The notes under the pieces: model-generated
The model's database searches: none
Told to the model about the DNA's origin: nothing
What the model saw: only the letters and a program-made list of their open reading frames with translations
Source: Russula earlei
Lineage: Eukaryota; Basidiomycota; Agaricomycetes; Russulales; Russulaceae
NCBI GenBank assembly: GCA_025769875.1
Contig: JAGFNK010000167.1
Coordinates: forward strand, 39,480-103,479
DNA length: 64,000 nt
Direction of reading: 5' to 3'
Translations under genes and position numbers: made by a program
Part shown: positions 5,599 to 29,037 of the stretch, piece after piece
Position numbering within the stretch: the first letter of the stretch is position 1
Layout of the letters: every line of letters starts with the position of its first letter

Positions 5599-8270
5599 AT
5601 GGCTACCATCCGTGTACAAAATATTCCTTTGGGAACTGGTCAAGATAGATTCTGGCTACAGCGTCTGGGCTTCTCTCTCGACACCGTCCTAACATCATCA
5701 ATTGAAGTTAGCCCTGACAACTCTACCAAGATGACTGGAACCGTCACACTACGGAACCCGAGTGAAGTACAGAGGCTGCTGAAACGTGATAACACAACTC
5801 CGGCAGGCATTTATCGTTTATCATCGAGGATTGCAATCGACAGTCACTTCCGCGGATTCACGGTAGTTGCCGGCGGTACTAATAACAAGTTAGAGTGGGT
5901 TTAAATAATATTATCTCATCACCAGGTCAAGCTGAGGGTGATGTGATCACAAGCATTATCGCAATTCATGGCCTAAACGGACACGCGTTCAACAGTTGGA
6001 CAGTCGACGATGTCATGTGGCTTCGCGATCTTTTGCCCGAACAAGTACCGGACGCTCGGGTGATGCTTTATGGATATACCGCGAATCTCGTAGACGATAC
6101 TACTGTGTCCCGGATTAAGGAGCACGCAAGACTCTTCATTAGGTCCCTGCAAGGCTTGGAGGAAATCGTAAGGGTGGCTTTTTGTTTCTCAACTGCTTCT
6201 GTTCGTTCAACTGTCGCCTTTAGGAGAAACGCCGCGTTATTTTCATCTGTCACAGCTTGGGAGGATTGGTGCTCAAACAGGTGTGTAGACATTGGCTAAA
6301 CGATTCAACATGTTTAGTATATTACAGGCGTTGATATACATCAGAAACCAAAGTGAATATTCGGCCCTACGGGATGTTGCAATAGGAGTGATCTTCTTAG
6401 GAACACCGCATAGAGGTAGCCCGCACGCTAATCTGGCCCGTATTCTTGTCAACATTGCCAGAATCTCATTTCGTGCCAATGCGAAACAGCTATTGGCTAC
6501 TCTTGAGAAAGATTCTGCTAACTTGATGGATCTATCTCACAGCTTCAGAGAGATTAGTTCCAAAATGAGGTTAGGCAGCTTTTGTGAGCAATTGCCAATG
6601 AAACTGCCTGGAGTGCGTCCATTCGTATTTCAGCGTGATACAATTTTTGCTAAATTTGGGTATTAGAAGTTCTTGACGACCCTTGATCTCGGTCTGGTGA
6701 GATTGGATGATTCGTGAGCGGCCGAATATCAGCCAATCGTTCCTATAGATCATCGATCAATGGTCTGCTACTCTTGAGGTCATCGGCGAATTGGTCATTC
6801 CCGTTAACCGCGATCATATGACCATTGCCAAATATGCCAATGCTGGCGATGAGGTGTACAAGCTAGTTGTTAATCAGGTGAAGAATATGGCAAAGGGGAT
6901 TGTCACATCTACGCCTCTTTCAACACACATGACGGCATCTTCAGACAATGCTTCAACAAGAGGTGATTACCTTTCGATTATGTCAATTGTTCCTTTGAAA
7001 AAGGGTTCCTAGATTCCCGCAGATTGCTAAACGTCCTCGATATCTCGATACCAAGTCAACCCGAAGTAACGACTGAGGACAGAGATCCAATCTCCGACAG
7101 CAACAACATGTCTAATTCACGACTGCCACCGCCATACAATATTGACGTTGTATCTACAACGTCCACAGAAGTCCAGTCTACTGATCTACGATCTGGCAGC
7201 ACTTCTTCGCCTAGGTTAGTAAATATCTCCCTAAGGAATCATCGCTTCAACTTGAAGAAGTCCCCAGCGCGAACCCGTACATTACGCCTATCGCATTCAT
7301 TTCAGAATTGCTGACGAAACCGGACAAGATTTCCGCGTCATCGATCGCGCTGTAAAGGGAACGAGTGACATCTGGGAAAAGACGTCCCTTACAACTTTCA
7401 AACTGAAAATGAGGGGAAGTGGGACCTCTGGGAGCTTACTACTCAGCAACAACAACTCTTCCGAATTGTTCTCTGTAGCGGCCGGAATGCACAACGATAA
7501 CCCATGGGGCGATATCGTCGTCGATGTGCCGGGTTATGCTGTGTCGCAACTTATCACTGATTCGTACTACGAATCGCGATCTGGGAGATTGTCGGCCAAC
7601 TCGAAAAAAGAAGAAAGGACGAGTTCTCGAGGAACGACTATATTCCTTACGATATCGGATCTGCAGTGGGATGGCGAACGAATTGCGACAGTTCTCATTC
7701 GTGACAGAGGTCAGATTAGTACGCCTCCTCCAGAGTGAGTGCTCTCGGTACCTCAATCTACCTGTACCATTGAAACTATCCAGAGAAATTCTCGTTGAGC
7801 TCGATATACCACCAGCCCCTGACTACGAGTATTGTATCCTGTTACGTATCCTGGACAAGACTACGTACGGATTTCGCGTTGCCGGCCAGGACCTCTTCGA
7901 TCCAGATAACGACCTCTGGCAAATCTTTCTTCCAACGCAACTCCGATTGTGCATGATGCATCACGGAAAGTCCGCAACCTTGCTCTTTGAGGATGGTTCC
8001 TCCTCGGAACGCTTTTCGATCGCAGTCGGGATTCACGATTATAAACCGTGGTGCGATATTCTCACGGACTTGCCTGCCAAAGCAAGGCTCTCCATCATTA
8101 ATAAGACGTACTATGGAATTCGAGGGGATAGACGCTTGGCCAATTCGTCGAGGGAAAGAAAAGTGACTTCGAGAGGGACGGCTGTGTTGTTACAGATCTC
8201 AGGTTTGCAATGGGATGGAAGCTACAATGCCACAGTGACGATATCAAGTACCCGAAACCTGTATACGTGA
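5599..8270 (+). CDS. SERAC1/SesB-like hydrolase fused to two fruit-body-lectin-like domains, copy 1 (frameshifted)
   Basis: Eight exons: 5599-5894, 5954-6167, 6224-6280, 6328-6612, 6667-6696, 6749-7214, 7258-7734, 7784-8270. Exon 1 encodes a ~98-residue N-terminal domain with an RRM-like start (MATIRVQNIP). Exons 2-6 encode an alpha/beta hydrolase of the SERAC1/SesB type: AIHGLNGHAF, nucleophile elbow CHSLGG, FLGTPHRGS, and the presumed catalytic His in NRDHMTIAK. Exons 7 and 8 each carry one domain resembling the Agaricus bisporus-type lectin family (TSGSL, GMHN..PW, SYY). Exon 6 lacks one base, at the A run 6998-7002, relative to copies 3 and 4, giving a stop TAG at 7010-7012 before the lectins. 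Taken literally, only the N-terminal and hydrolase parts are made; a sequencing error in the homopolymer is the alternative. Confidence 0.75.
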
Positions 8271-9540
8271 ACTGCAAACTATGATCTACTTTACCATTAC
8301 TACGCTATTAATCAAACCAACTTGGCTAATATGAAAGTGTAAGCCTCCATTATGGTTACGGTATTCTTGCTAATCGGTCTCTTTGTCATTTAGCGCAAAG
8401 GGCTGTAAGCTTACAGGACTTCCTTTCGCGTCGTGCTTTCAAGGCTCGCCTTTGTGATTGTGGCCCAATTGAATCCCACTGGCTCGCCTGGTTTCATTCC
8501 CCTTTATGTCATCTCGCCCGCTCTCGATGGCCCTTCCACTATCTCACCATTCCCTTTCCCTCGAACAGGACGTTATAACGAACTCGCCCAATCGTTCGCT
8601 GTCATCGCCGTCGTTGGAGCCGAAAGCTCACTGCCCGATTGCTTGGCGCTTTTATCATCGCGGCGCCACATGACTCTCGCGGCCAGTTCTTATGTCTCCC
8701 ACCCAACTCGTTGGATCCCTCGTTACGACTCCGTTTGTCTCAACTTTACCCTTTGTCGCCTCGTTCATCGTCTACGGCCCGCTTTCATACCTTTTCCTTT
8801 CATCGCCTCTCTCTTATAGTTTTTCTGTGTATACAAACTCTCTAGTCACTCTCCGGAACACGAGTTCGGTCTCCAAAACGCCCGAGCACGAATCGCCTTC
8901 CTCAACCCCACCTCAAGACGCGCCTTCTTTGCTCATCGATCTCGTCTGCTTCTGTGTCCGACATCCTCCTGGGACTGCTTTCCTCCCTCTCTTCCTCAGG
9001 TCTATGCCAGCATCACGAAATTACCTGCGCGTCCCCACACATGCTACTAATACACCGCCTGACACCTCCATCATCCCCTTTGCATTTGAAGGAAGGGAGG
9101 ATACATAGCTCATCTACCATCGTCGGATAAAATAGCATCTTCCTAAATGACTCTCGAAGCGGGGCGGGTTTCGGCTTCGGAGTCCCACTTTCACTACTGA
9201 GAGGTAAATGTGACTGTTTACTCTTCTCTGAGGGCCCATGGCCTTTCCAGCCGTCAGATGAAGGTGTGGTGACAGACGGCGAGGCAGAAGCAGGAGAAGA
9301 TGTCAACTAGTAGCTAGTTGACTGACCTAGAGGCTTTCCCAACGCGACACGCTAAGAGGTCCAGGAGGAGACGGTAAGCACCTTTGGACCAGCGTTCTCC
9401 GACCAAAGATGTAAGACGCCCAGTTGTGCTGATTGAACGCTCCTGGAGGGATGAAGTTGTGAGACCACTTGGCGCAGGCCGGAGAGGGCAGCAGGAACGA
9501 ACTGCTTGGGGAGAGTAGTGGCAGCAGCTCGTACGGGGAT
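8271..9540. other. spacer between inverted copies 1 and 2, no gene seen
   Basis: The first about 50 bases match the 3' flank of the other copies. The rest holds frames up to 138 codons (8433-9108) that are rich in Ser/Pro/Phe and have no recognisable domain, splice structure or repeat partner in the window. I do not call a gene here. Confidence 0.4.
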
Positions 9541-10109: not shown

Positions 10110-12515
10110 TCAGATACTTGATATAGTGACTGTGGCAGTGTAGCCCCCATCCCATTCCAAACCCGAGATCTTTAACAACACCACAGTTCCTCTCAAAGAC
10201 ACTTTTCTTGCTCTCGTCGAATTGGCCCGGCGACGTTCCCCTCGACTTTGGTAGTATGTCTTGTTGATGACGGGAAGCTTCGCTTTGGCGGGCAAGTTTG
10301 TGATAATATCGCACCACGGTTTACCATTGTGAATCCCGGCTGCGATCGAAAAGCGTTCCGAGTTAGAACGGTCCTCAAAGAGTAAGGTTCCAGATCTCTC
10401 GCTATCCGTCACGCACAATCGGAGTTGCGTCGGAGAGAACGTCTCCCAGAGGTCGTCCTCTGGATTCAAGAGGTTCTTGGCAGCAATGTAAAATCCCTCT
10501 GTGGTCGTGTCCACGACACGAAACTGAATACGATACGCGTAGTCGGGGGCTGGTGGTATATCGAGTTCAACTTCTCTGGGTAGTTTTAATGGTAGATGTG
10601 GATTGAGGTACCGGGAGCACTCACTCTGGAGGAGGCGCACTGGTGCTGATCTGGCCTCTGTTACGAATGAGAACTGTCGCAATACGTTCGCCATCCCACT
10701 GCAGATCCGATATCGTAAGGGATATGATCGTTCCTCGGGAACTCGTCGTTTCGTTTTTATCGGAATTGGCCGAGAATCTCCCAGGTCGCGATTCGTAGTA
10801 CGAATTGGTGATAAGTTGCGCGAGAGCATTATCAGGTACATCGACAACGATATCGCACCATGGCTTATCGTTGTGCATTCCGGCCGCTACAGAGAACAAT
10901 TCGGAAGATTTGCTGTTGCTGAGTAGTAAGCTCCCAGAAGTACCACCTCCCCTCATTTTCAGTTTGAAAGTTGTAAGGGACGTCACTTCCCAAATGTCAC
11001 TAGTTCCCTTTACAGCATGATCGATGACGCGGAAATCTTGACCGGTTTCGTCCGCAATTCTGAATTGAATGCAATAGGTGTAATGTGCGGGTTCGCACTG
11101 GGGACTTCTTCTAGTTGAAGCGATGATTCCTTGGGGAGATAGATATTTAATTTACTAACCTGGGCGAAGAAGTGCTGCCAGATCGCATATCAGCAGACTG
11201 GACTTCTGTGGACGTTTTGAATACAACGTCAATATTGGGTGGCAGTCGTGAAGACATCTTGCGGTCGGTGATTGGATCTCTGTCCTCAGTCGTTACTTCG
11301 GGTTGACTTGGTATCGAGATATCGTGGACGCTTATTAGGCCCCTTTTATCTTTACCAACCGCATTCTTATTTGGCAATGGTCACATGATTGCGGTTGAGA
11401 CGACGGGAGACTCAAGGATAGCAGGACCAATCTATAGCTAAGCTATAAAAACGATTGGCTAACATTCGGCAGCTCACAAGTTATCCAATCTCACCAGACC
11501 GAGATCAAGGGTCATCAAGCACTTCTAACACCCAAATTTAGCAAAAATTGTATCGCACTGAGATACGTATGGACGCACTCCAGGCAGTTTCATTGGCAAA
11601 AGCTGCCTAGCTTCAGTTTGGAACGAAGTTCTCTGAAGCTGTGAGCTAGGTCCATCCGGTCAACAGAATCGTTCTCAAGAGTAGACAATAGCTGTTGTTG
11701 TTTCGCATTGACACGAAAAGAGATTCTGGCAATGTTGACAAGAATGCGGGCTACCTCTATGCGTCTACACACTTGTTTGAGCACCAATCCTCCCAAGCTG
11801 TGACAGACGAAATAACGCAGCGTTTCTGCTGGAGGCGACAGTTGAACGAACAGAAGCAGTTGAGAAATAATAAGCCCCCTCATGATTTCCTCCAAACCTT
11901 GCAGGGACTTAATGAAGAGTCTTGCGTGCTCCTTAATCCGGGACATAGTAGTATCTTCTACGAGATTCACGTTATATCCAGAAAGCAACACCCGAGCGTC
12001 CGGTACTTGTTCGGGCAAAAGATCGCGAAGCCATATGACATCGTCGACTGTCCAACTGTTGAACGCGTGTCCGTTTAAGCCATGAATCGCGATGATGCTG
12101 TCATCACATACCCCTCAGTCAGCTTGGCCTGGTGATGAGATTATATTATTTGAACGTACTCCAATTTGTTATTAGTGCCGCCGGCCACTACCGTGGATCC
12201 GCGGAAGTGATTGCCTGCGATCCTCGATAATAAAAGATAAAGGCCTGCCGGAGTTGTGTTATCACATTTCAGCAGCCTTTGTACTTCACTCGGGTTCCGT
12301 AGTGTGACGGTTCCAGTCATCCTGGGGATGCATGTTGCCAATCAGCCTTAGCTGCTTACAAATACCTGGGGATCATGCTGTATACCTCTTGAGTTGTCAG
12401 GGCTAACTTCGATTGATGATGTTAGGACCCCGTCGAAAGAGAAGCCCAGATGCTGTAGCCAGAATCCATCTTAACCAGTTTCCAAAGGAAAATTTTGTAC
12501 GCGGATGGTAGCCAC
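10110..12515 (-). pseudogene. hydrolase-lectin fusion, copy 2 (pseudogene)
   Basis: This copy is clearly homologous to copies 1, 3 and 4 but broken in at least four places. The ancestral start codon is GTG (12515-12513). About 60 bp containing stops is inserted in exon 1 near 12320-12385, bordered by direct repeats CCTGGGGAT. One base is missing just before the CHSLGG elbow (near 11815), shifting frame. The start of exon 4, including the FLGTPH motif, is deleted. The two C-terminal lectin-like domains are still open (first within about 10625-11100, second ending at 10110) and keep TSGSL / GMHN and RSGTL / GIHN. Expression of a lectin-only fragment cannot be excluded, but no suitable start was found. 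Confidence 0.85.
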
Positions 12516-13092
12516 TTCGGAGATAATGTCTCCCTTTACCACGGTTGATGAGAGGTTGGAAAGTCACGATATTCGAATTTGAATAAGGCCCGATTTTGCA
12601 CGCTCCTTTCCCGGTGATGCAATGATCTTCACTAACTGCGGCCTGCACAGAATTAGCGGTTAAGATGAAGATGTCACCTCACAGTGGAACGGAGGACGCA
12701 AGAAGACGCCTGACTGATCGTAGTGATAAGACGAAGACCGGTGATGTTTATTCGGATAGGCTTTCGACTCCAGGGCCTCAACTAGGTCAAGCAGGTAGGC
12801 AACGCTCTGAAGAAGAGGGATGGAGGAAGGATAAGTGAGAGAGGCTGTTGGGGCGTTGACCACTCATGGCTTTCCAAAGTGGCTGGGGAATGTGACCTTT
12901 GTCACACCGCAAAACAATCCCATACCCCATACTGACTCTGATACGCTGCACTTTAATGCCTTCACTTGTAAATCGCATTGCCCTTGGAAAAAATCCCATT
13001 GAATCACAGGAATTACAGGTATCTATCATAATAAGTAAGACACGACCGCATGCTACATCCCGAGGGTACCTCAGCATAGCCACTGACTCACA
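12516..13092. other. 5' flank of copy 2
   Basis: No gene is seen. It is the inverted counterpart of the flank upstream of copy 1, so copies 1 and 2 with their promoters form the arms of a large inverted repeat. Confidence 0.6.
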
Positions 13093-13663
13093 CATCAGCA
13101 AACCACAAAAAAAATTCCTGGGTTTTTGTTGGTTTCCACTGGTTTCCCAGTTTCCGGAAACCGAAAACCCAGAAACTGGGAAACCTGGTAGACATCATGA
13201 AGCACACTGGAAAACAATTCAAGTTTTCTATGGTCACATCGACCATCTGAGTGAGCGATGCTGGCACCTTGCACTGGAATGTGCAGACAACGATGGTGAC
13301 AATGAATCCCTTCATCGTGCTGATGCCTCGATGATATCTGCATTCCATGCTGATCTGTATATACCTGAGAGTCCCCTCAAGGCTTAGATCCGTACCAGCT
13401 CGAATTGACTTCCAATTACAAGTAGAAATAATGTATACCCTATTTCTGACCATTTTCTCCCTACTATACTATAGTTCTACCAGTTTCCATACTTTCGACA
13501 GGTTTCTGTTAGTTTCTTAGGTTTCCATGAAAGATACTCTCAGGTTGTTTCCAGGAAACCAGACATGGGTTTCCCAGTCTCCTGGTTTCCCGGTTTCCAC
13601 TGGTTTTTTTTGGTTTCCTGAGGTGAGAAACCAACAGAAACTAAAATCCATCTTTACTGATGC
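13093..13663. repeat. MITE-like repeat, copy B
   Basis: This is the second copy of the element at 2118-2699, in the same orientation and with only scattered substitutions and small indels. It has the same CATCAG...CTGATG ends and the same left-end hairpin, with CA on both sides as a possible 2-bp target duplication. It sits exactly at the junction between the 5' flank of copy 2 and the 3' flank of copy 3. Confidence 0.65.
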
Positions 13664-14150
13664 ATTGTCATGCAAGGACGCGAACTTGAAAGGAGCTCTT
13701 GGATAGGGGACACAGAGGCGGTATTCAGAAGCACGGATATACTCGCAGACTTGGTTTTGAGCACGTGCATAGCATAGAAATGGTTCAGAGTCCAAAATTT
13801 CATTCAATTAGTAGCGTCTAAGGTGGTCACATGGTGGCCAAAGCTGTCTGTGGCAGATGATCTTGGTTGGTCTTCTTAGACTTGGATTTCCCAGCATGTT
13901 GCACTGGGAGGGCCTCCGGGCCAGTAATGAAGTCTACTATGGCCTCTTCATTGCATTCTGCTCCTGCTTCTGCCTTTGCGTCACACCTTCATCCCAGCCG
14001 CTGATGTCTGGCAATGCCATGTACAACCAGAGAGAAACTGGTCATATTTGCCTCTTAGTAGTGAGAGTGGGACTGCGAGGCCGAAGCATTCCATCTTATG
14101 ATAGCAGACAAACTACATCTTCCCTTCCTTGAAGAATAACGGGATGATGA
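13664..14150. repeat. 3'-flank repeat of the hydrolase-lectin family, left part, split by the copia element
   Basis: It matches 9541-9990. The matching sequence resumes at 18771 on the far side of the LTR retrotransposon, so these two pieces were once continuous. Confidence 0.7.
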
Positions 14151-14585
14151 TGTTGAGATAAAGCATAGCCAAAGTGTTGATGCGTCGGCCCAAACTGTCT
14201 GGGTGGCCCACAGGCCCGGACCACATAAGCATTTCAGATCAGTTGCTGAAACACATACAATAACAAAATTGATAGGGTGATCTAAGACAATTGGTAGCTA
14301 GCACATAGCAATTGTGAAAACAATTTGATAGTTACTACAGACAAAATAATTAGGGATGCTCTCAGATACTTAAGAGCGTCGTACATACAGTAGATACTTC
14401 AGTTTCTTCTCACAGAAACTAAAGTAAGTACTTACTATCTCACAATCTTATCAGTAGCTGATTACGTGCTGTAGTATCATTTTATTAGGTAAATATGACA
14501 CAAGTAGTTTCTTCTCACAGAAACTGAATATCATTTTATTAGATCTACTATGATCTAATCTTCCTTATCACTGCACGATTCAACA
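14151..14585 (+). repeat. 5' LTR of copia family I
   Basis: 435 bp, TGTTGAGATA...GATTCAACA, nearly identical to 18337-18770. Most differences between the two LTRs are CG versus TG/CA. Confidence 0.9.
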
Positions 14586-14692
14586 GGTTATGGGCCCTGG
14601 CCACTACTAAATTCCCAAGACAGAAATCCACATACAAGCTCACACAGTCTATCCACACATTCTCTCCCCTTCACGAGCCACTGTTCATCAGA

Positions 14693-17600
14693 ATGACACC
14701 CCACACTTTCAGTACTTGGATTGAAGTTTTGACCCACGCGTCAGGGGTACTGATCAGATTTCTAACATCTGGCATGCATATTTGCTCCACTTGCCCAGAT
14801 TGGCTTTATCACCCCATTTACCTAATCGAATCACATGGCACCTTGCCTAATGTTTACGTTCCCTCCTCGATCTTGATCACTTGCTTGGTCATCTCGCTTA
14901 CTGGCCATTACCCCATCGTGCATCGCACTACAGTTACAGATGATAGCCCCTCCAGCAATACTTCTTAGGACGCTGAGGGAGAACTCTTTTAGACACATGC
15001 ACTCCTGAAATATACATTCAGATGGTCACATCAGCAGTAACAAAAATGACACTAAATTGTATACTTGCAAGCTCAAGTGGGAGGAACTCAAATGCACATA
15101 TGGCAGCATCAGATCAATGTCAAATGTTCTACACATGGGCATCCCTTACACGCACATTCCTAGACATTAAACAACACACATCAGACGTTCCTGTGATTGC
15201 AACAAACGATGCATGGATCACTCTCCAATATAACCATTTATTCATATCGAATCTTCATTTCATGTTACCCAACGCTTACTTGGCTGTCACATTGACAAAT
15301 TCTAGCCTCCGGCGCTCCGATGAACCTTTCCCCACACAATCCAGGTACAGATCAAATGAAGATGGTTGTCAGGCCGGCCTCTCCACCTCACAAAATATAG
15401 TCATTCCAGTAAAGACACACAATGCTACGTCCGAGATACAATGCTGCTATTGCAATAAACTTGGGCATGCAGTCTGGACTACTGGAAGGAGAAGGTGACG
15501 AATACAAAAGTGACAGGCACTGACAGAAACATCAGCGCGTACATAGTGGGCAATACTGCTCCTATCACTGAGGTATCGAACGTCTGATGAATATGAGATT
15601 CTGGGTTTCCCTTTACGCGGCAACTAGATCTTGATTGACTACAGAGCTCATCATATTAGTCTGTTCTGGACCCCCAACTTCATTATTTGTGCTCCAGCCT
15701 CCAGATCTATTACTCTGGGAGGTTATACAGTCATCAGACAGATTGGGACTGGATCTGCATCCGTCCTGCTGGCCGGAAGGCCTTGGAGATATCCTTATTA
15801 ACCCTCATAGACATTCTACATGTACCGAAGGCTGATGCATGCAACTACACAGTGTGCGCGCTACTTTGGAATGAGGGATGCATCACATACACTCAAGAGG
15901 GGTGTTCAAATTTACACATCAAAGATCGGAAGATCACACACAGCTGGCTGGAGAACAATCTATTGTGTAGTAACTTCATAACTCCAGCTCTACAAGTGCA
16001 AAGAAGTGTCCTATCATTCCACATCCAGCATCAGCACATGAGGCATATGTCCACACACGCATTAATCTATTACTGTGATTCCGGTACCCGGATCTCGCTT
16101 GGCTTTACGGATTGCGATCAGTTATCCTGTCCAGAGTATACACTTGGCAACTGAATGCTTCTTTTCTGGGTTTCCCCTTAGCGATTGGATCCTTGGCTAC
16201 AAGATTATCTACAGCACCTTAGCCAATCTGCTGCACATGAGATCAATTTGAGGCGCTAGCTATTGAGGCAACATGCACTCACATACTTATCAGTTCAATG
16301 AGGGATCATACATAGATTAACAATGCCAGATTTACCACAGGAGAATAGAGTACCGAAAGATGGAATCGGACCCTTAAATACAACATGCATTCAAAAGTTA
16401 CACAGCACTGGTCTCACTCTCGGGTTCTGGAGCTCAGTACTAACGCTACCCTCCATACTAATGATCAGACTCCATCACGCATTCTCTGTGCATGCACACT
16501 TCATACACTGTGAACGGACAGACTGACTCCGGTCATCTCACAATTCCACCTTCTTTAGATGTAGGGCGTATGTCTACACACCTGACCATCGCGATCTTAT
16601 AGCGCGACAAGCGCATACTGCATAGCCAGGGGACATGTTACAGACACTGCTCCGCCTGCACAACTCTTGGTCCCTACAGGACCAGTGACATTCTCTGCCT
16701 TAATTTCACATGAACCGGATCATTGGCACTTTGTTCCACGCCTCTGGAAACCCCATTAGATTCCCTCACACCACACTCACTATACCTTACCCCGCCTATA
16801 CAGCCAGTTACACGTGTTCTGCCATACCATTTACACCATCCTCACTCAGCATTATTGGGACAATTCATTGGTCCACCGCATCTGCTCTCAGTTACACATC
16901 TTGGGTCTTATTCGCATCCACGTTCCAAATGTCTCGGAGGGACTGCACACACAGATCCGAGAGGGTGCTTATCACATATGGCTCGGCCACGTGGAAATGA
17001 TCACTGGGCTACATATCGGGAAGGCACTTTATTGGATTTTGCCGATGAGTGGCAAGTCGCGTATCCATATGTGATCGGCGCATTTGTGAAAAATGGTCCC
17101 TGGGATCTTGTCGATCTTATCGGAATGGGTGTGCAGCACGCAAATCTTGGAGATTTCACGTGCATTTCAGTTGCACAGGGGTTCACCCAATTTACAAGGC
17201 ATTGACATTGATGAAACCTTCTCACCAGTAGCCAGGTCCAAGTCTTAGCAACTCTTGTTCAGCATTGGCCACGCTAGCATATGGATTGGGAGATCTGAGG
17301 ACATCTTGTCAACATTCATCATCGGCTCACTGGGTGAAGAAGATTAGAATTATTTGGAGCAATCGCAAGGTTTCATCACACTGAAAACACTTTTTTGGTC
17401 TTACACAGGCCTCTCATACATGGGACCTACGTTCTCATGGAGTCCTTAGTGACTCGTGTTCAACTTATCTCGGTTGCATGCACACGCATTCTCATGCGGA
17501 CATATGTCATCGCCAAGACATGGGGGGATCCACTATCATTTTGCTCCACTATCATTTTGCTTCACATCCTCTCTGCTGATGACATCATTATCTTAGGCGA

Positions 17601-17700
17601 CCCTTGCAGTCTTGACGCTCACATCTACAGGTGCAATATCTATCTTTGTCTATGCGCTATGAGTTGACAGATCTAGCCAAGATCGCGTCATACCTTGGGA
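14693..17700 (+). pseudogene. decayed gag-pol of copia family I
   Basis: Broken frames only. At 15022-15498 a gag-like frame ends in a CCHC-type zinc knuckle (CYYCNKLGHAVW). Near 17170-17260 the motif order VAQGFTQ...D.DE.FSPVAR of copia reverse transcriptase is visible across stops. At 17568-17600 a degenerate active-site segment ADDIIILGD replaces the usual YVDD context. Multiple stops and frame changes separate these pieces, so no product is expected. Confidence 0.75.
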
Positions 17701-18010
17701 CCCACATTACACGCGATTGCTAGGCTAACACAGACATTGATTAATCAAGGCACATCTCAGATTTCTTCGGGATGGCAGATTCCACTCTGCTTCTGTAATC
17801 TGTAATCTCGGAGGTCTTACCTTGGGATGGCAGACTTCTGTTCCACTTCTGTATTCCACTCCATTCAGACACAGAAATCCGTTTGATCAAGCACTCCAGA
17901 GAAGCAACGCCTGTGGCGACTAGGCAAATATTAATGTTTTAACAGCAGCCTCCCCTATGTGCAGATCTGAACACTCTATAGATAGTCTCTCGACTCTGCG
18001 TCCACACGCA

Positions 18011-18230
18011 TTCACCTTTCCTTTTGGAGTCTCTCAACTCACAGTCTTATCGACTCACCCACTCGTTCACCTTTCCTTTTGGAGTCTCTTGACTCACAGT
18101 CTTATTGACTCACCCACTTGTTCACCTTTCCTTTTGGAGTCTCTCGACTCACAGTCTTATTGACTCACCCACTCATTCACCTTTCCTTTTGGAGTCTCTT
18201 GACTCACAGTCTTATCGACTCACCCACTTG
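18011..18230 (+). repeat. tandem repeat, 4 x 55 bp, inside copia family I
   Basis: Four consecutive units start at 18011, 18066, 18121 and 18176, each beginning TTCACCTTTCCTTTTGGAG and ending CCCACT(C/T)(G/A). They differ at a few positions only (for example CTCAACTC versus CTTGACTC). The array lies about 105 bp before the 3' LTR. Confidence 0.9.
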
Positions 18231-18336
18231 CTGATGGTCTACCAAGATGCACGTGCACCACACACAAATGCACTCTTTCATCACTGGATTAGGTCTCATC
18301 TGATCTAATCTACTGACTGTCAAGATCACAGGGGGA

Positions 18337-18770
18337 TGTTGAGATAAAGCATAGCCAAAGTGTTGATGCATCGGCCCAAACTGTCCGGGCGGCCCACAGG
18401 CCCGGACCACATAAGTGTTTCAGATCAGTTGCTGAAACCGTACAATAACAAAATTGATAGGGTGATCTAAGACAATTGGTAGCTAGCACATAGTGATTGT
18501 GAAAACAATTTGATAGTTACTACAGACAAAATAATTAGGGACACTCTCAGATACTTAAGAGTGTCGTACATACAGTAGATACTTCAGTTTCTTCTCACAG
18601 AAACTGAAGTAAGTACTTACTATCTCACGATCTTATCAGTAGCTGATTACGTGCTGTAGTATCATTTAATTAGGTAAATATGACACAAGTAGTTTCTTCT
18701 CACAGAAACTGAATATCATTTTATTAGATCTACTATGATCTAATCTTCCTTATCACTGCGCGATTCAACA
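18337..18770 (+). repeat. 3' LTR of copia family I
   Basis: 434 bp, TGTTGAGATA...GATTCAACA, preceded by a short purine tract and followed by the GATGA target duplication. Confidence 0.9.
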
Positions 18771-18881
18771 GATGAGAGCATTAGCGGATTATGGTACCAC
18801 ATCCCGCCTGTTTGGCGAAGACGATTCCATCAATAGCGTAGTAATGGTAAAGTAGATCATAGTTCGCGCGTATGCGGGTTA

Positions 18882-21535
18882 TCAGGTACTTGATATAGTG
18901 ACTGTGGCAGTGTAACCTCCATCCCATTGCAAATCTGAGATCTTTAACAACACAGCCGTTCCTCTCAAGGACACTTTTCTTGCCCTAGTCGAATTAGGCC
19001 GGAGTCTTGCCCCTCCTCGACTTTGGTAGTATGTCTCGTTGATGATGGAAAGTTTCGCATTGGCAGGCAAATTTGTGATAACATCGCACCACGGTTTACG
19101 GTCGTGAATCCCGACTGCGATCGAAAAGCGTTTCAAGGAGGAGTGGTCCTCAAAGAGTAAAGTTCCGGATGTCCCGCTATCTGTCATGCACAATCGGTGC
19201 ACTGGAGAGAACGTCTCCCAGACGTCCTTATCTGGATCCAAGAGGTTCTTGGCGGCAACGCGAAATCCATGTGTAGTGTTGTCCATGATATGAAACAGAA
19301 TACGATACGCGTAGTCGGGGGCTGGTGGTATATCGAGTTCGATTTCTCTGGATAGTTTTAATGGTAGATGTGGATTGAGGTACCGAGAGCACTCACTCTG
19401 GAGGAGGCGCACTGGTGCTGATATGGCTTCTGTTACGAATGAGAACTGTCGCAATACGTTCGCCGTCCCACTGCAAATCCGATATCGTAAGGGATATGAT
19501 CGTTCCCCGGGAACTCGTCCTTTCTTCTTTTTCGGAATTTGCCGACAATCTCCCAGATCGCGATTCGTAGTACGAATTGGTGATAAGTTGCGACACAGCA
19601 TTACCAGGTACATCGACAACGATATCGCACCATGGCTTATCGTTGTGCATTCCGGCCGCTACAGAAAACGACTCAAAAGATTTGCTGTTGCTGAGTAGTA
19701 AACTCCCAGAAGTACCATTTCCCCTCATTTTCAGTTTGGAAGTTGTAAGGGACGTCACTTCCCAAATGTCACTAGTTCCCTTTACAGCGCGATCGATGAT
19801 GCGGAAATCTTGACCGGTTTCGTCAACAATTCTGAACTGAATGCGATAGGCGTAATGTACGGGTTCCGGCTGACGACTTCTTCAAGTTGAAGCGCTGATT
19901 CTTTAAAGAGATCATCACTAACCTAGGAGTGTTGCCAGTTCGCAGATCAGCAGACTGAACTTCTGTGGACGTTTTGGATACAACGTCAATATTGGATGGC
20001 GGTGGCAGTCGTGAATTAGACATGTTGTTACCGTCGGAGATTGGATCTCTGTCCTCAGTCGTTACTTCGGGTTGACTTGGTATCGAGATATCGAGGACGT
20101 TTAGCAATCTGTGAGAATCTAGGAACCCTTTTCTCAAAGGAACAATTGACATAATCGAAAGATAATCACCTCTTGTTGAAGCATTGTCTGAAGATGCCAT
20201 CATGTGTACTGAAAGAGGCGTAGATGTGACGATCCCCTTTGCCATATTCTTCACCTCGTTAACAACTAGCTGGAACACAACATCGCTAGCATTGGCATAT
20301 TTGGCAATGGTTACATGATCGCGGTCAACAGGAATGACTGGTTCGTCCGCAAGAGTGGCAGACCATTGATCGACTACCTATAGGAACGATTAGCTGATAT
20401 TCGGTGGATCGTGAATCATTCAAAGCTCACCAGTCCGAGATCAATGGTCGAGAACGGCTAATTCCCAAAATCAGCCAAAATGTGCATTCACGCTGAAATA
20501 CCCCGAGACGTACCCCAGGCAATTTCATCGGCAATTGTTCACAGAAGCTGGCAATCTTCAGTTCGGAATGAAATTCTTTGAAGCTGTGAGCTAGGTCCAG
20601 CAAGCTAACTGAATCCTTCTTAATAGCAGTCAGTAGCTGCTTCGCATTGGCACGAAACGAGATTCTGGTAATGTTGACAAGAATTTGTGCCATATCGGCG
20701 TGTGCGCTGCCTCCATGTGGTGTTCCTAGGAAAATCACTCCTAGTGCGACGTCCCGTAGGGTCGAATATACATTTTCGTTTCTGATGAATACCAACGCCT
20801 GTAACAAAATACGCATCTCTCAAATCGGTTGGCCAATATTTACACACCTGTTTGAGTACCAATCCTCCTAAGCTATGACAGATGAAAATTATACGACGTT
20901 TTTGCTGGAAGGGACGAGTGAACGAGTGAACGAACGAGAGATATTAAGAAAGAAAAAAAGTTGCCCTCACAATTTCCGCCAAGCCTTGCAGGAGCTTGAT
21001 GAAGAGTCTGGCGTGTTCCTGGATCCGGGACCTAGAAGCATCTTGTATGATATTCGCGTTATATCCATAGAGCAATACCCGAGCATCCGGTACTTGTGCG
21101 GGCAAAAGATCGCGAAGCCACATGACATCGTCGACCGTCCAACTGTCGAACGCGTGTCCGTTCAAACCATGAATCGCAACAATGCTGTTATCACATCACC
21201 TCAGCGCGACCTGGCGATGAGATGATATTATAAACCTACTGTAAGTCACTATTACTGCCGCCGGCAACTACCGTGAATCCTTGGAAGTGAACGTCTATTG
21301 CGATCCTCGATGCTACACTGTATGGGCCTGTCTGGGTAGTGTTATCAAGTTTCAGCAGCCTCTGCACTTCACTCGTCTTCCGTAGTGTGACGGTTGCAGT
21401 CATCTTGGTAGAGTTGTCGTGGCTTACTTCAAGTGATGATGTTAGGACGGCAGCGGGAGAGCAGCCCAGAACGTCCTGCAAAAATTTATCATGATTGGTA
21501 TTCGAAGCAATATTTTGTATTCGGATGGTAGCCAT
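18882..21535 (-). CDS. SERAC1/SesB-like hydrolase fused to two fruit-body-lectin-like domains, copy 3 (intact, 760 aa)
   Basis: Eight exons: 21535-21240, 21184-20971, 20904-20848, 20798-20514, 20457-20431, 20377-19923, 19879-19397, 19347-18882. All borders are GT...AG and the sum is 2283 nt, an unbroken frame. Residues 1-98: unassigned N-terminal domain. Residues about 100-330: SERAC1/SesB-like alpha/beta hydrolase with VAIHGLNGH, predicted nucleophile Ser181 in CHSLGG, FLGTPHGGS, and predicted catalytic His314 in DRDHVTIAK. Residues about 345-440: low-complexity linker. Residues about 445-605 and 606-760: two domains resembling the fungal fruit-body lectin family, one exon each. SesB-type hydrolases are effector domains of fungal NLR-like proteins; no NACHT or NB-ARC domain lies between here. 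The sugar-contact dyad reads His-Asn in the first lectin and His-Asp in the second. No signal peptide or membrane segment is evident, suggesting a cytosolic protein. Function is inferred, not shown. Confidence 0.85.
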
Positions 21536-22384: not shown

Positions 22385-25195
22385 GTTGAATTACCATAAA
22401 AGGCGATTGTGTCGGCAAGAGAGTCGGGACTTCAATCACGCGTTAATGGATGTAATTTAGTTATATAAGTGGGTTAATAATAAGATAACTCCTTACCATT
22501 TTCCCCCTACCAAAAAAAAAAAGAAATGCAATCTCGTTTCCAATTGATTGGCATGCCATCCGCATCATCCGCCCATTCCGGCCCGAGTGCCCCTTTTGCG
22601 ACAATGTTTCCAGATCACTGCCAATTCTGGAAAGAGGGGAGGACTCAATTATGACTGGGAGCACGGCAGATACCCCATGGAATGGCTGACAGCAGCCAAT
22701 TTCAACGCGTGGCGCCGGCAAGAAGAATTGGCTCACTCAATTGAATTGATTCCATCCAGCACCAAGCATGGGCAGGGATGGACAAAGAAGGTTTTCATCT
22801 GCTCCCGCCAACTATCTGGGGGAGCTTCAAGTTATATAAAGAAGCACCCCGATCACACATGGAGATCTGAGATCAAGAAGACGGGTTGCCGTTGCCGAAT
22901 AGTCATCAAGTCTTACGCGGATGTGCCTACCATTCTTGGACAATATGCAAGCGAGCATTCTCATGAAATTGGAATTGCTAATCTTGCTTACACATGAATG
23001 TCACGTGTAGCATGTGATAAAATTAAATTCATGCTGTCAAAGAAGGTTGATCCACGGGAAATAGTAAGTGCCTGTATTGAATTTATTTTATTTTTATTCG
23101 CTAACTTAATAATGGAAAGGTACACAATATTCAGGATTCATCGCCCGATGGCAGCTGAGACCGATTCATCTCACTCCGGGATGTAAGCCGCATGGCCCGG
23201 GAAATGGAAGATGAGATTATCAGGCTGCATCCAGAGGATGCTATCTCCACCAGGCTCTGGTTGGACAGGTTTACAGATGAAAAAACAAATGTTTTTTACA
23301 AAGACAGGCTGCACAGTGCCCCATCTCAATCAAATCTGCAGGAGGATGCATATGTATTATGCATCCAGACCCCTTTCCAAATGGAGGCATTCTGCTGCCT
23401 CAGGAATGGCTTCATCGGTATCGATGCAACTCATAATATTACTCAATATCTGGACTTCTTATTATTTACCATGATCACGCGCGATCACTGGGGACATGGT
23501 GCGTAATATTTACTAAATGTCAATTTAGCGCGCTTACCCTTTCCAGATAGGTGTGCCTGTTGCCTGGATGCTGGCATCCAATGGAACAAAGGACACAATA
23601 TCCTTTTTTGTCCATTGGGTCAGGGATGCCAGTCCGGCTATCTGGCCATCTATTATTATGACAGATCGTGATGCTGCGCAGATTGCCGCCCTCAAGATTG
23701 CCTATCCGGGAAGTCGGATATGGCTTTGCAAGTGGCACGTGTTGCGCGTGATGCGATCACACTTCAATGCTAACAATTTTCCTGATCTGTGGGATAAGAT
23801 CAAGAGATGGGTACATACAGATGATCAGGCCGACTTTCTACAAATCTGGGAGGAGATCTCCACTGATCCTCAGGTTCCAGAAACTTTTGTGAACTATCTT
23901 GGGTCTCAATGGATGCCTGTGGTGCATATGTGGTCCATGGTTTACCAGAAAAATCAACATATCTTTGAGGAAGGGGACACCAACATGTTGATTGAAGCGT
24001 ATGTGATCCTCCCAATCTAAAGATAAGATGACTCAATCTTTTTAGATATCATCATGTCCTCAAATCACATTGGCTCGACAGCAAGTGCAATTGGTGGATC
24101 GATCGAATATTATTTGTTCTAGTGCATCGCATGGTGCTATATTACCAAAACAGGCACGAATGGCAGAACGTCGGGCTCGATGGTCAGGACCTGGCAGCTG
24201 ACAGGCGTCATATAATTTTCACCCATGCCGAGAGCATCTCACAAGATTCGATCTTGCAATTCGATGAGATCTGCTTTCACGTCACTTCACAGTCCTGTTC
24301 CAGCGCATTTTACTCAATCAATCTGATGAAGTCAACTTGTGATTGCACAGATTATCCCCAGATTAGATTCTGCAAACACATTGCAGCAATCTACATCCAT
24401 TTTCCCTACCTCTGTCCTGAGGGGAGCACACAAAAGGAAAGTGCAAATAAATCACCTGACCCCCCATCCCCATCATCTTCTTCATCCACACCAAGGGAGA
24501 GCCTAGTATCTCTCTCACAGGAGATCATATCATTATTGCATGATCTCACATCTAGGCTTGAAAACACTAATCAAACAGTGGAGATCGTTGAGGCCACGCG
24601 GGCTGCCAAATATGGTTTGGCAGCCGCAATCAATTTAATTCAAGGCTCCAAGGTCTTACCTGATAAGGAAGTGATCGCGCCCAATCATAAAATGTGGACG
24701 GAGACAGCCGAGTGTATGGGTGTCAAACTCAAACAGGGCCCAAAACAACGGACCAGTCTCCCCAATGCGCGGGGATTGACAGCGTGAAGCATCAGCGTCA
24801 CTAAGGGAAAGTGCCGCCATGTTCACAATGATCTGTACACCAGGGGCGAACAGTCAGGCAAGTGCGCCAAGCCCAATGCAACATCTGCCACTGTGAATGC
24901 ACACATGCGTGCCCTCAGGGAACTGCTGTCCCTCCCTCGGAACCCCCCTCCCTCCAATGCTGCCACCTCCCTTGCACCAGGTCCCTTCAGACTCACACCA
25001 CTGCCTCTAACGGCCTCAACTGTTGCTGTTCCTTACAATACAAAATCTTTTTTTGTATCAATTTAATTTATTTGTCTAATAGCTAATAAATAAGTCATTA
25101 AATATGTAATTGAGAAAATGATTTGGTGACATTTAAATGCATAATTGATGTACCGATTCTCTTGCCAACAAAATCGCCTTTTATGGTAACTCAAC
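22385..25195 (+). mobile_element. Mutator-like (MULE) DNA transposon
   Basis: Terminal inverted repeats of about 45 bp: GTTGAATTACCATAAAAGGC at 22385 matches GTTGAGTTACCATAAAAGGC read from 25195 on the other strand, continuing as GGCAAGAGA(G/A)TCGG. The interior encodes a MULE-type transposase. I find no convincing 8-10 bp target-site duplication next to the repeats, so the insertion is old or one end has been altered. Confidence 0.8.
22525..24787 (+). pseudogene. MULE transposase, interrupted
   Basis: The N-terminal part (22640-22994) has a FAR1/WRKY-GCM1-like zinc-binding pattern (VFICSRQ, TGCRCRI, SEHSHEI). It is interrupted by an in-frame TGA at 22995-22997, after which the frame continues (SRVACDKIKFMLSKK). 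After a likely intron the catalytic core follows at 23192-24020: first Asp in GIDATHN, second Asp in MTDRDAAQIAAL, then CKWHVLR. A SWIM zinc finger (CDCTDY....CKH, about 24330-24385) and a Ser/Pro-rich tail end at 24785. SWIM after a MULE DDE core is the standard order. Several frame changes (about 23160-23190 and 24020-24120) may be introns, but the internal stop argues against an active enzyme. Confidence 0.75.
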
Positions 25196-25250
25196 CCACT
25201 GTGAAAAGAACGCAACTGCTGGCAGAAGTCGGAGAAAAAATACATACATG

Positions 25251-25647
25251 ACGGGCAGGAAGGGATAAGTCGACTCTGCTTATAGTCAACTCAGTGGATA
25301 ATAAAAGTAAAACATTTCAAGTGCTGAGTAGGCTCTGTTGTGGCCACAAATTATATTACATAAGTAATGACCTTAGTTGAGCACGAAAAATGTGACAAAA
25401 AAGGTTAAATATGGAGAGTCTACTCATTCCAGCACAACTTTTACTCAGGCTAGGTAAAAGTTGTGCCAGAATGAGTAGACTCTCCATATTTAACCTTTTT
25501 TGTCACATTTTTTGTGCTCAACTAAGGTCATTACTTATGTAATATAATTTGTGGCCACATCAGAGCCTACTCAGCACTTGAAATATTTTACTTTTATTAT
25601 CCACTGAGTTGACTATAAGCAGAGTCGACTTATCCCTTCCTGCCCGT
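25251..25647. repeat. 397-bp near-perfect palindrome (foldback element)
   Basis: Two arms of about 194 bp (25251-25444 and 25454-25647) are reverse complements with only about five mismatches, around a 9-base loop TCAGGCTAG. The outer ends read ACGGGCAGGAAGGG... and ...CCCTTCCTGCCCGT. There is no coding potential. It begins 55 bp after the MULE terminal repeat and ends where the family 3'-flank repeat resumes. It could be a foldback MITE; transcripts through it would form a long hairpin RNA. Confidence 0.9.
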
Positions 25648-25884: not shown

Positions 25885-26274
25885 TGTTGCGCAGCATAGA
25901 GCGCAGCTAACAGGCCAAGCAACCCACCTTAGAGGTTGTGCTAATGCTCAAGTGATATTGGGGTGTAGAGTGATGTGTATACTCGTCTACAAGTATGGTA
26001 TTTATACCTCTATGACCCAGGGCTGTTCCTAAGTCCAAAAGAGGTGACTACAGGTGTCCACTATATCGCGCATTAAGTGACGCGTGATGTGGAAACGTTC
26101 TAGACGCAGCATAAGGCTGCATCTTGTGATAGATAGCGTACTATGTGTAACCCTATTGCCATAAGCGCATATACTAAAGTTCTGTCTAACACGTAACATC
26201 TGTGAGCGGATCTTGAACCTTGTATGAAGGTCTTTGCCTTTTTTGATCCGTTCGGGTTCCGGTTCAACAAGTAT
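25880..26274 (+). mobile_element. solo LTR, copia family II
   Basis: A 385-bp LTR (25885-26269), TGTTGCGCAGCATAG...GGTTCAACA, is flanked by a perfect 5-bp duplication AGTAT (25880-25884, 26270-26274). It matches the LTR at 59811-60197. With no internal sequence, it is the product of LTR-LTR recombination after insertion. The unoccupied site is visible near 9930. Confidence 0.9.
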
Positions 26275-26468
26275 TCCGTCCTATGATGATGAGCCCTTCC
26301 TTGAAGAACAAGCGGATGATGAGGGCATCGGCGGGTTATGATATACGGCGTACCATCTGTTAGACCGATACAGGTCCATTGATAACACAGTGGCAGTAAA
26401 ATAGATCGTAGATCCTCGTTTAAGTATATCCCATCTTGAGCTAGGCAATGTAACCCAAATTGTACAAG

Positions 26469-29037
26469 TCATACGGTACTTGATATAGTGACTGTGGCAG
26501 TGTAGCCCCCATCCCATTCCAAACCTGAGATCTTTAACAACACCACAGTTCCTCTCAAAGACACTTTTCTTGCCCTCGTCGAATTGGCCAGGAGACTTTC
26601 CCCTCGACTTTGGTAGTATGTCTTGTTGATGACGGGAAGCTTCGCTTTGGCAGGCAAATCTGTGATAATATCGCACCACGGTTTACCATTGTGAATCCCG
26701 GCTGCGATCGAAAAGCGTTCCGAGTAAGAACGGTCTTCAAAGAGTAAGGTTCCGGATCTCTCGCTATCCGTCATGCACAATCGGAGTTGCGTCGGAGAGA
26801 ACGTCTCCCAGAGGTCGTCATCTGGATCCAAGAGGTTCTTGGCGGCAACGTAAAATCTGTCTGTCATCTTGTCCACGACATGAAACAGGATACGATACGC
26901 GTAGTCGGGGGCTGGTGGTATATCGAGTTCAACTCCTCTGGGTAGTGTGAATGGTAGATGTGGATTGAGGTACCGAGAGCACTCACTCTGGAGGGGGCGT
27001 ACTAATCTGACCTCTGTTACGAATGAGAATTGTCGCAATACGATCGCCGTCTGACTGCAGATCCGATATCGTGAGGGATATGATCGTTCCTCGAGAACTC
27101 GTCATTTCTGAGTTGGCCGACAATCTCCCAGATCGCGATCCGTGGTACGAATCAGTCATAAGTCGCGACACAGCATTGCCAGGTACATCGACAACGATAT
27201 CGCACCACGGATTATCGTCGTGCATTCCGGCCACTACAGAGAACGACTCAGAAGACTTGCTGTTGCTGAGTAGTAAGCTTCCAGAAGCACCACTTTCCCT
27301 CATTTTCAGTTTGAGAGTTGCAAGGGACGTCTCTTCCCAAATGTCACTTGTTCCCTTTACAGCGTGATCGATGACGTGGAAATCTTGTCCGGTTTTGTCA
27401 ACAATTTTGAACTGAATGCGAGAAACGAAATGTACGGGTTCCGGCTGGGGACTTCTTCAAGTTGAAGCGACGATTCTTTAGGATGATCATTACTAACCTA
27501 GGAGAAGGATTGTGGCTAGTTTGAACTTCCGGAAATGTTTCGGATGCAACGTCAGTATCAGACGGTGAAGGCAGTCGTGAAGAACTGGATTTGGATATGC
27601 CGAGAGACATGGTACTCATATCTCTGTACTCAGTCGTTACTTTCGGTGTTGATTTCTTCTGGATCTTTGAGGACGCAGCCATCTTTTTCACATGATCAAC
27701 AAGTAGCCTGTACACCCCATCGCCGGCACTGGCATATTTGGCAATGGTCACATGATCGCGGTCAACGGGAATGATCGATTCCCCTTCGACGTCAAGAGTA
27801 GCAGACGATACATCGACGACCTATGGGAACGATTGGTTGATATTCAGCGGCTCGCGAATCATTCAAATCTCACCACTCCGAGATCAATGGCTTTCGTGAA
27901 GAACCTCTGATTCCCAAATTCAGTTAAGACGTGAATTCACTTTGAAATACCCCAAGACATACCCCGGGCAATTTCATCGGTAACTGTTCACAGAAGCTGG
28001 CAAACTTCAGTTCGGGATGAAGTTCTCTGAAGTTGTGAGCTAGGTCCATCAGTCCAGCTGAATCCTTCTCGAGAGTACGCATGGAGTGCATCGCATTACG
28101 ACCAAACGAGATTCTGGCAATGTTGACAAGAATATCCGCCAATTCCGCCTGCGCGCTCCCTTTATGCGGTGTTCCTAAGAAAATCACTCCTAAAGCGACA
28201 TTCCGTAGGGTCGAATATTCTATTCCGTTACTGATGAATATCAAAGCCTGCGATAAATAAGTATCTCTCAAACCGTTTAGCCTGTGTCTGCACACCTGTT
28301 TGAGTACCAATCCTCCTAAGCTATGACAGATGAAAATCACACGACGTTTTTGCTGGAGGTGACAAGTGAGCGCACAGGAGCAGTTGAGAAACAAAAAGCC
28401 CCCCTCACGATTTCCTCCAAGCCTTGCAGGCACCTAATGAAGAGTCTGGCGTGTTCCTGGATCCGGGCCCTAGAAGCATCTTTTATGACATTCGCGTTAT
28501 ATCCATAGAGCAACACCCGAGCGTCCGGTACTTGTTTGGGCAAAAGATCGCGAAGCCACATGACATTGTCGACTGTCCAACTGTCGAACGCGTGTCCGTT
28601 TAATCCATGAATCGCGATAATACTGTCATCAAATCAGCCTCAGCTTGACCTGGGGATGAAAGAATTTTATAAACCTACTCTAACTTGCGATTATCGCCAC
28701 CGGCAACTACCGTGAGTCCGTGGAAGTGAGTGTCTATTGCGACCCTCAGAGTCGATTCTACAGGGAAGGAGCTTGCCGACAAAGAGAACTTATCAATCTT
28801 CAGCAGCTTCTGTACTTCACTCATGCTCCGTAGTGTGATAGTTCCAGTCATCGTGTTAGAGTTGTCGGGGCTAACTTCAAGAGTTGATGATAGGACGACT
28901 TCTTGAGAGAAGCCCAGGAAGTCCTTCACAAGTTCATCTTGGTTCATCCAGTCAGGAAAGTTCATGTTCAGACACTTCCTCAAAAGTTGGCGTTTATGAG
29001 TGCCCAAGGGAATATTTTGCATTCGGATCGTGGTCAT
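26469..29037 (-). CDS. SERAC1/SesB-like hydrolase fused to two fruit-body-lectin-like domains, copy 4 (intact, 735 aa)
   Basis: Eight exons: 29037-28679, 28622-28409, 28352-28296, 28247-27963, 27906-27874, 27820-27498, 27454-26987, 26937-26469; total 2208 nt with an open frame. Architecture is as in copy 3, but the N-terminal domain is about 20 residues longer and the linker before the lectins is about 44 residues shorter. The elbow is CHSLGG (predicted Ser202), followed by FLGTPHKGS and predicted His339 in DRDHVTIAK. A Trp conserved in copies 1 and 3 (DQWSATL) is replaced (DVSSATL). The lectin dyads are reversed relative to copy 3: His-Asp in the first domain (GMHDDNPW) and His-Asn in the second (GIHNGKPW). 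It is the most diverged copy, so probably the oldest split, and is still intact. Function is inferred from domains only. Confidence 0.85.

Follow-up and report, generated by a model that had tools for sequence, protein, structure and literature searches.

What a lipase-like hydrolase joined directly to two lectin domains might do in a mushroom is the question raised by a window of 64,000 nucleotides from Russula earlei (the whole stretch of DNA analysed). Four paralogues in it encode a SesB/SERAC1-like alpha/beta hydrolase (PF05057) together with two fungal fruit-body lectin domains (PF07367), and profile matches and gene models bore out the four-copy cluster proposed in a preliminary description of this DNA.

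Extent of the hydrolase–lectin cluster

Positions 5599..29037 take in part of the family. Contig C884 links the end of the window to contig C351, which adds three fusion loci, two intact and one dead, and a pair of lectins with no hydrolase. In total, the seven fusion loci and this lectin-only pair are spread over about 111 kb. Five of the seven fusion loci are intact on one haplotype and four on both, while two (copy 2 and 351_48) are dead on both, in support of the suggested birth-and-death pattern with copies ranging from intact to dead. A whole-genome search with the PF07367 profile gave 28 matches, all 28 above the cut-off, and the four lectin pairs of the window account for eight of them. 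Hydrolase-only paralogues are also present, and a transposon is located between copies of the cluster.

Gene models

The features of the four copies are collected in Table 1. The layout had been described as eight exons, identical in every copy. This holds for copy 4, whereas copies 1 and 3 have nine exons owing to an extra intron in the linker exon (50 nt in copy 1, 51 nt in copy 3). A frameshifted copy 1 was considered and rejected, since the 50 nt GT..AG intron restores the frame and is required for it to stay open; the public model of this copy (NCBI F5148DRAFT_1286402, here P0002, 737 aa) splices the same intron. P0002 differs from the 753-residue model solely in the absence of 16 residues, as it begins the lectin 1 exon at an acceptor further downstream. 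In copy 3 the linker intron is in frame, and public model P0001 (598 aa) reads it as coding; this model also omits eight residues of exon 1 and ends before lectin 2. Of the three public models, P0001 and P0003 end after lectin 1 and lack lectin 2.

The five intact models in the genome contain 37 introns, every one of them GT..AG. Each lectin domain was confirmed to occupy one exon, and both frame and phase 2 are preserved across the linker–lectin junction in the five intact paralogues. Copy 2 is the sole dead copy within the window; on both haplotypes it has GTG in place of ATG, internal stops and shortened exons 4 and 6. The allele of copy 3 on contig C513 carries a stop codon in the linker.

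Table 1. Positions of the hydrolase–lectin copies and their parts in the window
Feature	Position	Strand	Description
Copy 1	5599..8270	+	intact, 9-exon model, 753 aa
Copy 1 lectin 1	7258..7734	+	single exon, phase 2 at both ends
Copy 1 lectin 2	7784..8270	+	last exon
Copy 2	10110..12515	-	pseudogene
Copy 2 lectin 1	10756..11079	-	PF07367 stretch
Copy 2 lectin 2	10206..10538	-	PF07367 stretch
Copy 3	18882..21535	-	intact, 9-exon model, 743 aa
Copy 3 exon 3, nucleophile elbow CHSLGG	20848..20904	-	
Copy 3 lectin 1	19397..19879	-	profile and sequence match
Copy 3 lectin 2	18882..19347	-	profile and predicted structure
Copy 4	26469..29037	-	intact, 8-exon model, 735 aa
Copy 4 lectin 1	26987..27454	-	
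Copy 4 lectin 2	26469..26937	-	

Hydrolase module

Comparison with Pfam profiles covered copies 1 and 3. Both matched PF05057 (DUF676) above its curated cut-off of 20.3 bits (copy 3, 1.1e-7 and 32 bits; copy 1, 1.8e-6 and 28 bits), supporting assignment to the SERAC1/SesB type. The domain has an alpha/beta-hydrolase fold with a GxSxG-type elbow and a catalytic His, and the Ser, Glu and His residues are conserved. The structural model was computed for P0002 with 14 alignment rows. Its lectin part was poor (10-residue pLDDT means of 24–44), probably because most of the rows were proteins without lectins, and only the hydrolase was used. The hydrolase is preceded by an N-terminal domain, about 95 residues long, whose elements are predicted to follow the order beta-alpha-beta-beta-alpha-beta, and the linker between hydrolase and lectins was predicted with low confidence.

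Compared with Pfam at E up to 0.1, copies 1 and 3 matched neither NACHT/NB-ARC nor WD40, ANK or TPR repeats, and HET was likewise absent from their matches. A genome search for HET (PF06985) gave zero matches in the genome and zero in the controls and is uninformative on this domain. The PF05057 genome search recovered one gene only, on contig C22 and outside the hydrolase–lectin family. Split exons of the family score below the profile, and the copy counts were therefore taken from other searches, including that with PF07367.

Lectin module

The PF07367 profile matched two stretches each in copy 3 (6.6e-39, 133.5 bits) and copy 1 (4.5e-35, 121.1 bits), against a curated cut-off of 25. The lectins were matched by sequence search to ABL, SRL, XCL and BEL, and the proposed fruit-body-lectin identity is thus supported by both the profile and the match to solved structures. 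The structure of lectin 2 of copy 3, predicted with 13 lectin exons, matched the actinoporin-like beta-sandwich fold of ABL/SRL in a fold comparison. Exons 7–8 of the original layout accordingly fall within the lectin fold, the last exon by fold and the preceding one by sequence only.

Across 12 domains, SRL sugar-contact positions are kept in 69 of 96 cells compared with 283 of 1104 in other columns, the counted positions sitting in motifs possibly retained for the fold. Matches to the SRL/BGL contact residues numbered 10 of 12 for Ser, 11 for Gly, 12 for His, 8 for Asn, 12 for Asp, 11 for Ile, 5 for Thr and 0 for Arg, a column in which the alignment may slip by one position; HMMER places an Arg opposite that of SRL in lectin 1 of copy 3. 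Seven of the eight checked positions are kept in lectin 2 of locus 351_52 and of a protein from Cerrena zonata. At the GlcNAc site, the residue opposite Thr81 of SRL is valine in each of the six first lectins and threonine in five of the six second lectins.

Variation between copies and haplotypes

Between paralogues, purifying selection acts on the hydrolase and the lectins alike. In copy 2, exons 1–5 resemble copy 1, lectin 1 resembles copy 3 and lectin 2 resembles copy 4, and lectin exons have been exchanged between copies. Between the two haplotypes of the one assembly, 33 of 35 blocks are at least 99.0% identical, and intact genes differ by 1–6 nonsynonymous changes each; the nonsynonymous counts and the lectin tree omit the dead loci copy 2 and 351_48 and the lectin-only pair, and the exon 8 tree omits 351_48. 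No sign of het-type allelic divergence was seen between these two near-identical haplotypes.

Occurrence in other species and comparison with known systems

Two protein surveys scored the best 7995 candidates by shared words, and a third scored all 3117. Among the candidates scored, the fusion order was found in one other species only, Cerrena zonata, whose protein QCA50_008064 (P0004) runs hydrolase, lectin, lectin with 36–37% identity. In the P0004 model, unlike the Russula copies, the N-terminal domain and the first part of the hydrolase are missing. The two Cerrena lectins group together in the lectin tree (94/99; the first lectin, CerL1, is a long branch), a grouping that would fit a separate duplication of the lectins, while the Val/Thr split at Thr81 between first and second lectins points to an older shared pair.

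NLR-type proteins made up eight of the ten relatives counted in one of the surveys of the best 7995 candidates. In the genome search with NPHP3_N, a NACHT-type profile, 150 of 350 candidates were scored, both haplotypes being counted. As the profile matched 9 of 14 control genomes too, other P-loop proteins may account for some of the matches, and the search gives no NLR number. 

The preliminary description knew of no system with this fusion. Among the publications listed by our literature searches, none showed a SesB–lectin fusion, but the class of architecture has in part been described. BH, encoded by het-B of Podospora anserina, combines HET, HAD and a fruit-body-lectin fold with no NOD in the described layout, and 13 of 132 HET proteins of that species are reported to carry the lectin fold (PMC10890737). 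Of the described systems, het-B is the closest, and the Russula genes can be read as a variant with a SesB lipase as executor. As far as BH is described, it and the Russula proteins have in common an N-terminal effector, a C-terminal fruit-body-lectin fold, the lack of a NOD and a multicopy family. They differ in the effector (HET versus a SesB-like hydrolase), in the number of lectins (one versus two), in how the lectin is detected (by fold versus by a PF07367 sequence match) and in their alleles, reported as divergent at het-B and nearly identical between the two Russula haplotypes of one assembly. Nor did a PII-like partner gene come to notice beside the Russula copies.

SesB-like domains are described as N-terminal effectors of fungal NLRs, among the most frequent ones (PMC4986451). 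The Russula proteins share the hydrolase class and its N-terminal side with these described SesB–NACHT/NB-ARC–WD40/ANK/TPR proteins, but, judging from the Pfam comparison of two copies (1 and 3), carry lectins in the place of NOD and repeats. The fungal chimerolectins MOA, PSL1a and CCTX2, as described, likewise join a lectin to a non-lectin domain in one protein. This partner is proteolytic in MOA and PSL1a, in contrast to the lipase-like domain in Russula, and CCTX2 combines beta-trefoil lectins with a killer-protein-4-like domain (PMC13324453). ABL, SRL, XCL and BEL belong to the same fold and sequence family as the Russula lectins but are lectins alone, with chains of 141–145 residues.

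Possible functions of the family

The reading tentatively preferred, at just short of an even chance, is a two-module cytosolic receptor-effector without a NOD and with the SesB lipase as executor. The lectin pair would bind a non-self or misplaced ligand, either a glycan or, as proposed for het-B, a protein. Binding would gather molecules or relieve the lipase, which would then act on membrane lipids, and this attack may restrict growth or be lethal to the cell or to the intruder. The suggestion in the preliminary description of a recognition-and-response protein lacking NACHT and repeats is thus favoured. The domains, their single-frame fusion, the conservation of Ser, Glu and His, the purifying selection acting on either module and the exchange of lectin exons are seen in the sequences, whereas the binding of a ligand, activation, hydrolysis of lipids, cell death, the cytosolic location and the immune role are inferred. 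Against this reading stand the near-identical haplotypes, which show none of the allelic divergence reported for het-B, and lectins that are on average under purifying selection, not diversification. Moreover, with many NACHT-type matches in the genome, a receptor without a NOD is not needed for want of NLRs, and no partner gene came to notice between the copies.

The same lectins could instead arm a defence toxin stored in the cytosol of the fruiting body, binding gut glycans of an eater while the lipase damages its cells, after the pattern of MOA and CCTX2, in which a further domain is likewise attached to a lectin. We consider this unlikely, though it is the leading alternative. A cytoplasmic location is described for fungal defence lectins, and AB-toxin-like action for chimerolectins as a class (PMC13324453); the Russula lectins are near enough to ABL, SRL, XCL and BEL for sequence search, and the excess of kept sugar-contact positions, including seven of eight in the second lectins of 351_52 and Cerrena, also speaks for it. 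However, those positions may be kept for the fold, the GlcNAc-site threonine is valine in every first lectin examined, the Arg column is empty unless the alignment slips, and SesB-like domains are known from fungal NLRs (PMC4986451). A role as an allorecognition locus proper, with polymorphic copies deciding somatic incompatibility between mycelia, appears improbable. The het-B precedent (PMC10890737), the copy 3 allele interrupted on one haplotype and intact on the other, and clustered copies with exon exchange and an intervening transposon fit it, but the near-identity of the haplotypes does not. Somatic incompatibility in basidiomycetes is described as poorly understood (PMC8229728), so that no known gene serves for comparison.

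Less probable still is an enzyme of lipid handling outside immunity that docks through its lectins on glycosylated membranes. For human SERAC1, a phospholipid esterase activity and the modification of lipids of the plasma membrane have been described (PMC4986451); nevertheless, the many copies, with both haplotypes carrying two dead loci among the seven, and the finding of the fusion in one other species only among the candidates scored argue against such a role. That hydrolase and lectins are separate genes and the fusion was merely read in is very improbable. Truncation of two public models after lectin 1 and the existence of a lectin-only pair and hydrolase-only paralogues would agree with it, whereas the preserved frame and phase of the junction, the joining of hydrolase to lectin in all of P0001–P0003 and the separate case in Cerrena speak for a true fusion.

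Cytosolic galectin sensing exists, and the receptor-effector reading has a narrower form, itself a long shot, in which twin lectins in the cytosol watch for glycans never meant to face it and directly switch on the fused lipase. Such glycans might be exposed on a ruptured vacuole, a vesicle or an invading cell, and swapping of single lectin exons between tandem copies would re-assort the ligand range. If true, this surveillance would be a one-protein counterpart of galectin sensing plus an NLR executor.

To our knowledge, there is no settled account of how SesB-like lipases become active. A naturally NOD-less SesB protein, with a sensor whose class of ligand can be guessed and tested, would allow that step to be tested with one protein. 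Taken with het-B, the family would point to the fruit-body-lectin fold as a recognition module that can be reused with different executioner domains in both Ascomycota and Basidiomycota, and it is a candidate also in basidiomycete somatic incompatibility.

Gene models and domain composition

The assembly comprises 66.6 Mb in 1374 contigs, and the window corresponds to bases 39480-103479 of contig C167. The models of copies 1, 3 and 4, whose introns are GT..AG, are open and encode 753, 743 and 735 residues. The fusion of a hydrolase to fruit-body lectins, as put forward in the preliminary description, was borne out by profile search: copy 3 gave Pfam matches above cut-off to PF05057 (DUF676 serine esterase; residues 100-258) and twice to PF07367, as did copy 1. 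The CHSLGG elbow was located in exon 3, and each lectin is one exon, both as described. Lectin 1 is a phase 2-2 exon and lectin 2 the last exon, so that duplication or exchange of a lectin exon would leave the frame intact. The supposedly identical eight-exon layout had to be amended, as copies 1 and 3 can hold one linker intron more than copy 4. The public protein model of copy 1 (P0002) splices this extra intron and differs only in that its lectin 1 begins 16 residues late; that of copy 3 (P0001) retains the linker intron, with 8 exon 1 residues absent. P0001 and the model of 351_14, a further fusion locus on contig C351 (P0003), terminate past lectin 1, where the last intron starts.

Cluster size and haplotypes

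Profile search of the whole genome gave 28 PF07367 matches, every one in the hydrolase–lectin family; they represent seven fusion loci and one lectin-only pair. Each fusion locus is present on two near-identical contigs (C167/C513, C351/C972 and C351/C189), which were treated as haplotypes. Contig C884 matches both the window end (58735-64000; 99.2%) and C351:1-4196 (99.7%), so C351 continues the window. This bridging contig matters because the overlapping sequence is repetitive, with some 40 scored genome matches, mostly at 86-91%. Joined in this way, the seven loci fall within ~111 kb.

Five of the seven (copies 1, 3 and 4, 351_14 and 351_52) are intact on one haplotype; the number intact on both is four, since the C513 allele of copy 3 carries a linker stop, and two loci are dead on both. 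Of the copies described earlier as ranging from intact to dead, copy 2 is a pseudogene on both haplotypes. Identity between haplotypes was at least 99.0% in 33/35 blocks, and the remaining two (98.3% and 95.7%) both lie in copy 2. GC content is 0.43-0.51 in the cluster region (6001-30000), against 0.53-0.54 (1-6000) and 0.53-0.59 (30001-42000).

The spacing between copies 3 and 4 is about 1.3 kb on C513 versus 4.9 kb on C167, which indicates that the MULE-type transposon is absent on the former. By eye, this element has a long inverted repeat near 25290-25640. The copy 2–copy 3 interval measures only about 2.7 kb on C513. The window's final 1.7 kb is a repeat (some 40 scored genome matches). 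For the 824 aa frame, Pfam returned no match with an E-value of 0.001 or below.

Transposons, repeats and other features (window coordinates unless a contig is named)
Feature	Position	Strand	Remarks
Short repeated element, two copies	1942-2412 and 12896-13387		Long stretch common to their reading frames
Repeats between copies 2 and 3	13100-18770		Copia-like by eye
55-base tandem repeat, four copies	18011-18228		
MULE-type DNA transposon	22500-25640		Between copies 3 and 4; PF10551 at 23529-24017
Single open frame, 824 aa	32177-34651	-	
Copia-type reverse transcriptase	61148-61780		PF07727, 3.3e-51
Lectin-only pair	C351:6.1-7.0 kb		Seen once

Selection, exon exchange and sugar-contact positions

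For the five intact paralogues (10 pairs), mean dN over mean dS rose from the hydrolase (0.34) through the lectins (0.39 and 0.50) to the N-terminal part (0.69) and the linker (0.74); by these ratios both the hydrolase and lectin modules are kept. In the exons 2-5 tree two pairs had 100/100 support, copy 4 plus 351_14 and copy 2 plus copy 1; copy 2 paired with copy 3 in the exon 7 tree (96.4/91) and with copy 4 in the exon 8 tree (99.1/100). Since the parts of copy 2 match copies 1 (exons 2-5, 92.3%), 3 (exon 7, 91.9%) and 4 (exon 8, 92.5%), the copies have exchanged individual lectin exons.

Eight positions contacting sugar in SRL, a solved fruit-body lectin, were read in the 12 lectin domains of the five intact copies and of Cerrena. 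Asn72, also a contact position, completes the eight; the others are taken from PMC6272482 and PMC7794217. SRL-identical cells numbered 69/96 at these positions versus 283/1104 in other columns, and 3/20000 random 8-column sets scored as well. The GlcNAc-site threonine is valine in 6/6 first lectins, and none of the 12 domains matches SRL in the Arg column, where a one-column alignment slip is possible. The excess of SRL-identical cells lends weak support to sugar binding, because the contact positions sit in motifs perhaps kept for the fold.

Relatives and other hydrolase loci

The full-length protein search returned, among the matches listed, 14 proteins: three of Russula earlei, a Cerrena zonata protein with hydrolase and two lectins, and ten that have no lectin. 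Among these ten, eight either contain NACHT, NB-ARC or NPHP3_N domains or are named as NB-ARC proteins. Searches with the lectin parts only listed 4 and 3 proteins, all previously found. The domain order recurs in at least one other species, Cerrena zonata, with no further fusion among the matches listed.

Lectin-less hydrolase genes outside the cluster lie on C133 (two) and C277 (L041-L043). By eye, the frames of all three start MGGAVVS or MGGAVIS, a start not seen in the lectin fusions; it looks like an N-myristoylation signal. On five contigs (C702, C421, C135, C355 and C1373; loci L036-L040) a lectin-2 fragment lies 1.2-3.8 kb beyond a similar hydrolase copy, as though the linker and lectin 1 had given way to an insertion. 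The sequence between hydrolase copy and fragment is unrelated; in L037 it holds frames similar to the short repeated element of the window.

Interpretation

In the Podospora recognition locus het-B, a fruit-body-lectin fold that sets recognition specificity is joined to a HET effector, the described layout having no NOD (PMC10890737). SesB-like domains rank among the commonest N-terminal effectors of fungal NLRs (PMC4986451). Because a SesB executor stands in the Russula genes where het-B has HET, the leading interpretation, at just under even odds, is that these are NOD-less lectin receptor-effectors, a new variant of such proteins. The main rival, a cytosolic chimerolectin defence (PMC13324453), is considered less likely. 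No described SesB–lectin fusion was found in searches of one open-access library, and the word 'lipase' occurs nowhere in the text of the fungal-lectin survey PMC8227253.

A genome search for NPHP3_N (NACHT-type) gave at least 150 scored matches above cut-off from 350 candidates, with both haplotypes counted and controls also giving matches in 9/14 genomes, which suggests a large NLR repertoire in Russula earlei. In the light of these 150 matches, lectin receptor-effectors would probably add to the NLR repertoire, not replace it.
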